A DNA stretch of 25,721 nt, taken from IMG/VR virus record IMGVR_UViG_3300008117_000262, positions 1 through 25,721 of that record; one strand, given 5' to 3'. A model generated the notes under the pieces. The model was not told the origin of the DNA and did no database searches. It was given only the letters and a program-made list of their open reading frames with translations. A program made the position numbers and the translations under genes. Source of the stretch: a virus. This document shows positions 22,581 through 24,966 of this stretch, piece by piece (position 1 is the first letter of the stretch; each line of letters begins with the position of its first letter).

Positions 22581-23453
22581 TTATTGTACTGTAATCCTAT
22601 AGCTGTAAGATCCTTTCTTCCTGTACTTCTCTAGATCTACATCTGGGCAAAGGTCTGTAACTATTGCCTGATAATCCACTCGTCCTTGTGTTTCATATCT
22701 AGAAACCTTCCAGTTAGTACCTTTAGCGTTCTTGTTTCCGATACGTTCTATAACATCTTTCTTCAATCGCTCGGCTCTATCGAGCAACTCTTTTGCTATT
22801 CGTGTATCGTTGTCATACTGCGCCATAAGATCATGCAAAATCATGTCACTGCTTAGGTCCTCATAGTCTCGATCTGTTGCAGGTGGCGGATCAAATTCGT
22901 CCAGCCTACGCTTAAAATCGAGCACCTTGGGGATCATGTCGTCTATGTAAGCTTGATCGCGCTGAACAACAACTAAAGCATAGTCACCTTGTCTATGGCT
23001 GATGTAGTAGCAAACATCTAAACCACTGACAAACATCTGAAATTGAACTTGAGCCCTGTGATGCTCAGGTAGCTTACCAGATTGTGCCATTTCATGATAC
23101 TCTTTATTGTTGTTTTTTATTTCAACTATACAAGTATTTATTGAATTGATTCCGTCTAACGATGCGATAAACAACGGATTTTCTTTACTTTGCAAAACGC
23201 ATGGTTGCACTTCTATACGATATTGATCGAAGAACCATTGCCTTACTTGATCCTCAACATCTAAACCGCGTTGCATATGAGGGTTTGATGCTTGAGGTTC
23301 GCGAAGACCCATTTCTTCTTCGTATAACATTAAACAAGAACGATAGGGGCAAATTCCTAAAATTGCAGCGACCTTGCTTGCTGAAATCTTACCTTTTCTC
23401 CACTGTTTCCATTCTTCACTTCCTTGATCGAGCATAATTCTGTTAGCATTCAT
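22581..23453 (-). CDS. YqaJ/lambda-Exo-type recombination exonuclease
   Basis: Predicted exonuclease that resects double-stranded DNA ends so the Bet/RecT protein can anneal the exposed strand. The 290-residue product has the family motifs in order: QGSEEWKQWRKGKISASKVA (10-29), RGLDVED with an acidic residue at 67, ASLDG with Asp100, and VEIK with Glu111 and Lys113. PEHHRAQVQFQMF (129-141), the helical region with Gln contacts, follows. Asp-Glu-x-Lys is the metal-binding core. The residues after EIK are NN rather than the common CP. ATG 23453 has GGAG nine bases away; an in-frame ATG at 23468 does not. It overlaps the DUF29 gene by 11 bases. Confidence 0.9.
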   Translation of the reverse strand: MNANRIMLDQGSEEWKQWRKGKISASKVAAILGICPYRSCLMLYEEEMGLREPQASNPHMQRGLDVEDQVRQWFFDQYRIEVQPCVLQSKENPLFIASLDGINSINTCIVEIKNNNKEYHEMAQSGKLPEHHRAQVQFQMFVSGLDVCYYISHRQGDYALVVVQRDQAYIDDMIPKVLDFKRRLDEFDPPPATDRDYEDLSSDMILHDLMAQYDNDTRIAKELLDRAERLKKDVIERIGNKNAKGTNWKVSRYETQGRVDYQAIVTDLCPDVDLEKYRKKGSYSYRITVQ

Positions 23454-23886
23454 AAGGACACTCTCCATCTAAAATTTGTTCCTTTGTCCAAGGACACTCT
23501 TTAGGAAAAACATTTATATTTATATTTGTTTCTTTAGAAGCTTCTTTTACTGCGCGTGAATAGCATTCAGTAATAAATTCTTCTAGTTGCGCTTTTAAAC
23601 TAGGACTATCGTCTAATATGATATGCAATTGCCTAAAAGATGTTCTTATGGAATTCTGCCAGGAATGCGAGTCTATTTGTTTTTCAGGTTGAAATTTTAG
23701 CTTCAAGGAATGCATAAAAATATTCTCTAAAAAGCTTTTTACGGAGCGTTTATCTCTTCTTGCCAACGATTCAATCTCCTCAATCACATTTTCCCAGTCA
23801 ATCATTTCAAATTTCCTTTCTTTCAAAAGGTCTGCTTGCTCAGCAGACCATGCATAAAAATCAGTGTCGTAATTACTCGCTTGCAT
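23443..23886 (-). CDS. DUF29 family protein
   Basis: A 147-residue DUF29 protein. Hallmarks are the start YDTDFYAWSAEQADLLKERK, then DWENVIEEIESLARRDKRSV (29-48), the helix with FMHSLKLKFQP, the SWQNSIRTSFRQL motif (74-86), and the FP..CPWTKEQIL end. The family is mostly known from cyanobacteria and some proteobacteria, its biochemical role is unknown, and it is often found in many copies per genome. Here it lies between the annealase and nuclease genes and overlaps both (14 and 11 bases), so it is probably made with them. Function in recombination is inferred from position only. Confidence 0.88.
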   Translation of the reverse strand: MQASNYDTDFYAWSAEQADLLKERKFEMIDWENVIEEIESLARRDKRSVKSFLENIFMHSLKLKFQPEKQIDSHSWQNSIRTSFRQLHIILDDSPSLKAQLEEFITECYSRAVKEASKETNININVFPKECPWTKEQILDGECPYEC

Positions 23887-24697
23887 CGTCTATATCTCCA
23901 TTCATCTTCATTTCGATCTGTTGAGCTAGATACTGCGCTCTTCTGTCCTGAAAAAGCGAAAGCATGTTGCCATAACATTTGGCCGGAAGCTGTCTAATAT
24001 CGCCGCCATTGCATTTTTTGCGTACATGCTCTAACATCACATCAAGCTTTGAAGGATCGCATTCTGAGATGATTTTTGTGAGTTCTTCGGCTTGTTCAGC
24101 TGTTATGTACTCGATAGGCTTAACAGACTGACCGACCACCTCAACTTCAACGCTATCCGCTTGATCCATCTCCTCTTTTGTATATATACCGCTCAACTCC
24201 GCAGGAAACGCTTTTCTAATAGCTAAAGCCTCGGCACATTTAGCAAGCATAGTCCTAGGCATTTTTTGCCATAATCCGGATGGTTTGCCTTGGAAAACCT
24301 GAACGTATTCTTCAAAATGAGCAGTCGCGGGAACAATGTGCCAAGTCCCATCAGATGTGCGTTTTTTGATATAAGCAGTAGCAGACAAAAGTTTGCCATT
24401 TGCATCATGCACAAAAGATGGCTCTTGACCTGGTGCGTATCTTCCAGTTCTATCTGCGACTAAACGGTATCCATCAATTGAAGTTTGAATGGTCATTTGA
24501 TTACCGCGCTTGATATAGTAAACCTGGCGAGCGAAAGGATCTAATCCTGTACGCTGGCAAGTATATAAAAATACCTTAAACTCATCGTCTGAAGCGCCTT
24601 TGCAATAAATGCTTTTGATAGTCTCAATTTGTTCTTGTGTGAAGTGAGAAGATGGTGAGATTTCTCTTGCTTCATGTTTTACTAATTCGTTGCTCAT
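23873..24697 (-). CDS. bet: Bet/RecT-family single-strand annealing protein
   Basis: Phage annealase that pairs complementary single strands with the exonuclease encoded downstream. The 274-residue product, near lambda Bet's 261, has the conserved run from TQEQIETIKSIYCKGASDDE through CQRTGLDPFARQVYYIKR to MTIQTSIDGYRLVADRTGRY (about 20-87). FEEYVQ, LWQKMPRTMLAKCAEALAIR and KAFPAELSGIYTKEEM follow (to about 176). The C-terminal 90 residues are less conserved and probably bind partners. AAAGGA precedes the ATG; the start overlaps the upstream stop by ATGA. Confidence 0.93.
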   Translation of the reverse strand: MSNELVKHEAREISPSSHFTQEQIETIKSIYCKGASDDEFKVFLYTCQRTGLDPFARQVYYIKRGNQMTIQTSIDGYRLVADRTGRYAPGQEPSFVHDANGKLLSATAYIKKRTSDGTWHIVPATAHFEEYVQVFQGKPSGLWQKMPRTMLAKCAEALAIRKAFPAELSGIYTKEEMDQADSVEVEVVGQSVKPIEYITAEQAEELTKIISECDPSKLDVMLEHVRKKCNGGDIRQLPAKCYGNMLSLFQDRRAQYLAQQIEMKMNGDIDDASE

Positions 24698-24966
24698 GGT
24701 TTTTCCTTTTCTATGGTAATTTTGATTGATTTGTTTTCTAATATCTTTTCAGCCAGGCAATCAATAAGTTTTCTATAGAAGTCATCTTTTTCTAAAAGTT
24801 CTTCAAAGAAAGTGTTTACTCCAAGCATAAAACTATGCCTTACTTCATCCAATATCTCTTCTTTATTGAATAAGTCTTTAATAAGCTTCTCGATATGTTC
24901 GTCAAATTTTCCGTAGGAAATTCCTACAATTTTTTGATATTCGTCAATTAATTCCCTATCGCTCAT
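24694..24966 (-). CDS. Small acidic helical protein before bet, unknown
   Basis: A 90-residue helical protein rich in Glu, Lys and Leu (SDRELIDEYQKIVGISYGKF; then KDLFNKEEILDEVRHSFML and FFEELLEKDDFYRKLIDCL). No family recognised. The ATG at 24966 shares an 18-base leader and start, AAAGGAAAAACCATGAGC, with bet. Longer frames to 25026 would run into the upstream gene. It ends in an ATGA overlap with bet. A recombination-related accessory role is inferred from this coupling. Confidence 0.7.
   Translation of the reverse strand: MSDRELIDEYQKIVGISYGKFDEHIEKLIKDLFNKEEILDEVRHSFMLGVNTFFEELLEKDDFYRKLIDCLAEKILENKSIKITIEKEKP

Follow-up and report, generated by a model that had tools for sequence, protein, structure and literature searches.

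Our analysis indicates that the DUF29 gene found between the bet and exonuclease genes of an IMG/VR virus record (the window, i.e., the whole stretch of 25.7 kb that was analyzed) is probably a horizontally acquired accessory gene, cargo or a "moron", which is co-expressed with Bet and Exo and is functionally apart from them. The open reading frame is genuine and overlaps co-oriented genes on both sides, its place is a variable slot that unrelated genes occupy in other phages, and DUF29 has no conserved neighbor elsewhere.

The window also encodes a major capsid protein (phrog_1357) and a tail-fiber gene. On its minus strand the transcription order is bet/RecT, DUF29 and exonuclease, with the genes overlapping head to tail (Table 1). 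The Bet and Exo proteins exceed the cut-offs of the named lambda families (TIGR01913 and TIGR03033), and their genes lie in one operon, as expected of a lambda Red-type two-component recombinase, which we predict the pair to be. The ATG of DUF29 (23886) has a GGAG 9 nt upstream, within recT. For the exonuclease, a start at 23468 gives an overlap of 26 nt with DUF29 and the ATG at 23453 gives one of 11 nt; judged by Shine-Dalgarno (SD) spacing (GGAG 9 nt upstream), the latter is probably the better start. An earlier note on this DNA had described DUF29 as lodged between overlapping bet and exonuclease genes, and this description was borne out by the family matches and by overlaps of 14 and 11-26 nt. 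Its further claim, that DUF29 is made together with both halves of the recombinase, is well supported by these overlaps and by the SD-like sites inside the upstream genes, from which we infer that the three genes are cotranscribed. Apart from the window, the surveyed contigs, which are partial, contained the trio in only two cases, the near-identical IMG/VR contigs L002 and L003, whose DUF29 proteins are 100% and 98% identical to that of the window; this recurrence shows that the arrangement did not arise by faulty assembly. Four synonymous and three non-synonymous codon changes separate the DUF29 genes of the window and L003.

Table 1. Genes and gene overlaps at the recombinase locus of the window.
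Feature	Position	Strand	Basis
Bet/RecT-family single-strand annealing protein, 274 aa	23873..24697	-	PF03837 E 6e-33; phrog_2780 E 9e-57; TIGR01913 bet_lambda 117.7 bits vs cut-off 77
DUF29 protein, 147 aa, all-helical, in the recT-exo slot	23443..23886	-	PF01724 E 9e-47; AlphaFold2 pLDDT 90.6; match to 3fcn
YqaJ/lambda-type exonuclease, 295 aa (290 aa from the probable start at 23453)	22581..23468	-	PF09588 E 2.8e-22; TIGR03033 lambda-exonuclease family 135.9 bits vs cut-off 68; phrog_434 E 1e-54
Overlap of recT end and DUF29 start, 14 nt	23873..23886	-	Sequence; SD-like GGAG at 23896-23899
Overlap of DUF29 end and probable exo start, 11 nt	23443..23453	-	Sequence; SD-like GGAG at 23463-23466, inside DUF29
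ORF upstream of bet, 90 aa, GC 30%, at the position of gam in lambda	24694..24966	-	No family

The 90-aa ORF upstream of bet gave no Pfam match over the cut-off and no convincing PHROG match. It is missing at the same place in L003, whose alignment with the window is interrupted between 24715 and 24961. The same AAAGGAAAAACC leader precedes both this ORF and bet, which suggests that the ORF may have been inserted with a duplicated ribosome-binding site.

The DUF29 protein matched PF01724 over the whole domain, with 159.2 bits against a curated cut-off of 22.5 (residues 6-141 of 147 on profile positions 2-135 of 138). Its AlphaFold2 model had a single standout structural match, the DUF29 crystal structure 3fcn (Rhodospirillum rubrum RRU_A3208; VIA Z 13.7 over 132 residues), with the next match at Z 6.0, and the predicted fold is the all-helical one of this solved family member. 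Eight columns are invariant across 37 diverse DUF29 members (D9, W13, D30, E37, H59, L61, W76 and P128), and the window protein retains every one of them. These invariant columns suggest a functional site, and no known-enzyme motif was found. Despite these likenesses to the family, the window copy is divergent, sharing no more than 45% identity with other lineages of the tree, and it lies between recT and exo, unlike every other surveyed member. A BFVD fold search gave no match, and Pfam matches to T6SS VipA and Cas_Csa4 fell far below the cut-off and were rejected. DUF29 queries also gave no match in the annotated phage genomes of INPHARED, so that there was no cultured phage for comparison, and neither "DUF29" as a whole word nor PF01724 was mentioned in the literature searched.

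DUF29 loci were identified by an alignment search, 48 of them viral and 80 in genomes. None of the other viral loci, about 40-45 in number, adjoins recT or exo. Of the records searched in full (the window and those of 47 viral loci), 10 contain RecT and 14 contain YqaJ; these counts include the window, L002 and L003. Outside the trio, the YqaJ gene nearest to a viral DUF29 is on the opposite strand at a distance of ~1 kb (L030), followed by one at 2.5 kb, also opposite (L020/L045), and the nearest RecT gene lies 2.8 kb away on the opposite strand (L049). No RecT or exo relatives were detected within 6 kb of the 80 bacterial-genome DUF29 loci with profiles that were built from the window's own kin and could miss remote SSAP families. 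Conversely, among 71 recT-relative phage records from the best 80 of at least 511 recT matches, DUF29 was present in only one, as a tandem pair ~9 kb from recT, and in none did it occupy the recT-exo slot; rarer lineages with DUF29 in the slot may lie beyond these best 80 matches. Five DUF29 phages (L020, L042, L051, L055 and L056) share the window's capsid family and carry DUF29 elsewhere in the genome. The earlier note had called for a survey of DUF29 beside Bet/YqaJ genes and had held that absence from other genomes would count against its proposal; the survey showed no recurrence except in the two near-identical contigs.

The neighborhoods of DUF29 likewise revealed no preferred neighbor or partner. 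Across 117 distinct loci, the only near neighbor that recurs broadly is another DUF29 (13/117), and the 123 immediate neighbors that were scanned gave 101 Pfam families, none of them more than twice. Tandem, divergent DUF29 pairs were observed in phage contigs (L043:106-1007, L055:5512-6444 and L233:1322-2242). The gene is common on plasmids (86 PLSDB records) and widespread in bacterial chromosomes, e.g., those of Nostoc and Photorhabdus, and on plasmids, phages and chromosomes it is a solitary or tandem gene. Viral copies are dispersed over the DUF29 tree, in which the starred branches force at least six changes. The window copy forms a long branch without firm placement, and for this reason it could have become specialized.

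To describe the junction itself, we surveyed 60 non-redundant pairs in which recT lies upstream of exo, taken from the best 80 of at least 511 recT matches. The two genes overlap or are separated by less than 90 bp in 24 of these 60 pairs and lie 90 bp or more apart in the other 36; the reverse order, exo before recT, was seen in none of the 73 same-strand first-pass pairs. Occupants of the slot are mutually unrelated and include a family of helical proteins of 57-65 aa, HNH/HTH genes, DUF551 genes, a membrane/coiled-coil protein, DUF29 and others. Most frequent was the 57-65 aa family (19/60 pairs; L156:3804-3977, L158:3786-3959, L168:3798-3974, L180:3843-4016 and 15 more), for which the members scanned gave no Pfam or PHROG assignment above the cut-off. 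As a potential recombination partner, this family is a stronger candidate than DUF29. Homing-endonuclease-type HNH/HTH genes fill the slot in 7 of the 60 pairs and may account for the gain and loss of cargo there. These genes usually overlap the slot edges (L172:3750-4523, L204:2031-2702, L166:1193-1798 and L221:3719-4405), and the one in L221, which has no Pfam match, was grouped with the others by similarity only. DUF29 was the occupant in a single pair out of the 60, that of the window lineage. Since most occupants overlap both neighbors (1-17 nt shared with recT, 4-50 nt with exo), overlap is a general property of the slot and is not evidence that DUF29 works with its neighbors. In L060, which has the closest relative of the window's exo (42%) and the best non-identical relative of its recT (56%), the slot holds a small membrane/coiled-coil gene, and in L061, with a capsid protein 85% identical to that of the window, recT and exo overlap with no gene between them. 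By eye, look-alike small membrane/coiled-coil genes with an FLWVRSEA... motif were seen in the slot of L060 (6844-7057) and elsewhere in L003 (787-1065), which is a further indication that occupants of the slot relocate within the genome.

We propose that DUF29 was inserted at the junction of recT and exo, a permissive slot, where it would be translated from the same early message as Bet and Exo, each overlap allowing re-initiation or coupling. The protein would act separately from the Bet/Exo pair and would benefit the phage or its host when mobile elements compete or come into conflict. Classical morons carry their own promoter and terminator. The DUF29 gene of the window resembles phage morons and homing-type insertions in its low GC content (34%, vs 42% for recT and 40% for exo), in its absence from the same site in close relatives, in its lack of linkage to neighbors, and in a site that hosts HNH/HTH genes in kin. 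Unlike a classical moron, it sits inside an operon and overlaps the genes on both sides; the overlaps of 14 and 11-26 nt leave no room for a promoter and terminator of its own, and hence "cargo" applies in the broad sense only. Against the cargo reading, all three contigs have an intact, mildly constrained DUF29, and in this one lineage the close packing of the gene between its neighbors could stem from a regulatory or functional tie.

A specific form of the cargo reading, which we regard as tentative, is that DUF29 is a counter-defense, superinfection-exclusion or toxin-like protein directed against the host or other mobile elements. Its abundance on plasmids, its presence on phage contigs and its tandem chromosomal copies are consistent with such a role, and its invariant residues (D, E, H and W) suggest that selection acts on a site. 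However, known defense models gave a single match, at chance level; this PADLOC CARF_HEPN match (E 0.004) was attributed to helical-bundle background, as were structural echoes of NeC3PO (Z 5.3) and MntA-HepT (E 4.5). An HEPN or other RNase motif was likewise rejected, because the R of a possible R-x4-6-H motif is not conserved: H59 is invariant, but the position seven residues before it is R, H, E or F, and F in the window copy. A toxin-antitoxin pairing was rejected as well, as no conserved partner such as an antitoxin accompanies DUF29.

The locus resembles the lambda Red operon (gam-bet-exo) in that a Bet/RecT annealing protein and a lambda-type exonuclease are encoded in a co-oriented, overlapping operon; in lambda, however, bet directly adjoins exo, with gam upstream of bet, whereas in the window an unrelated gene separates bet and exo. 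From its position, the earlier note had suggested that DUF29 is linked to recombination, or that it is cargo or an inhibitor of host nucleases, as Gam is in lambda. That DUF29 was recruited in the window lineage, either as a third component of the Red-type recombinase or as a shield of phage DNA ends against host nucleases, is in our view improbable; if true, DUF29 would thereby gain its first assigned function, with a hint at the role of its many bacterial copies. As an accessory recombination factor, DUF29 would bind Bet, Exo or DNA and modulate single-strand annealing, with its place in the operon setting the stoichiometry. The overlaps, the SD-like sites within upstream genes and the shared orientation would fit this role, as would the intact gene in three contigs and the echo of NeC3PO, a translin-type bundle that binds ssDNA/ssRNA. 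Still, a Z of about 5 is background for helical bundles, DUF29 does not recur beside recombinases in the surveyed loci, and the slot accepts unrelated genes, with related phages having the recT-exo pair and no DUF29. We therefore consider this role very unlikely, and the link to recombination drawn from position was not supported, as DUF29 adjoins recT or exo nowhere else that was searched.

An inhibitor of the host RecBCD/AddAB nuclease, resembling Gam, appears more doubtful still. Phages with exo and bet often encode such an inhibitor nearby, and gp5.9 and Gam are small acidic proteins (PMC9836394). DUF29 is small, helical and acidic. Yet its acidity is moderate and shared by most DUF29 relatives (net charge -8, pI 4.96), compared with a pI of 4.0 for the DNA mimic gp5.9 (PMC9836394), and homology to Gam was rejected, since hhalign gave a probability of 0.9% over 16 columns and there was no Pfam Gam match. 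In addition, the spread of DUF29 in bacterial chromosomes would be unexpected if the protein inhibited the repair nuclease of its own host, and lambda gam does not lie between bet and exo. Thus, the cargo part of the suggestion in the earlier note is favored by the evidence and the Gam-like part is not. Altogether, a role for DUF29 in recombination or host-nuclease inhibition is possible, without specific support.

Our survey thus separates a rare occupant of the slot, DUF29, from a recurrent one, the 57-65 aa protein. It indicates that the recT-exo junction in this family of tailed phages of roughly 38-40 kb is a variable cargo slot, and for this reason guilt by association from position is weak there, even with overlapping genes.
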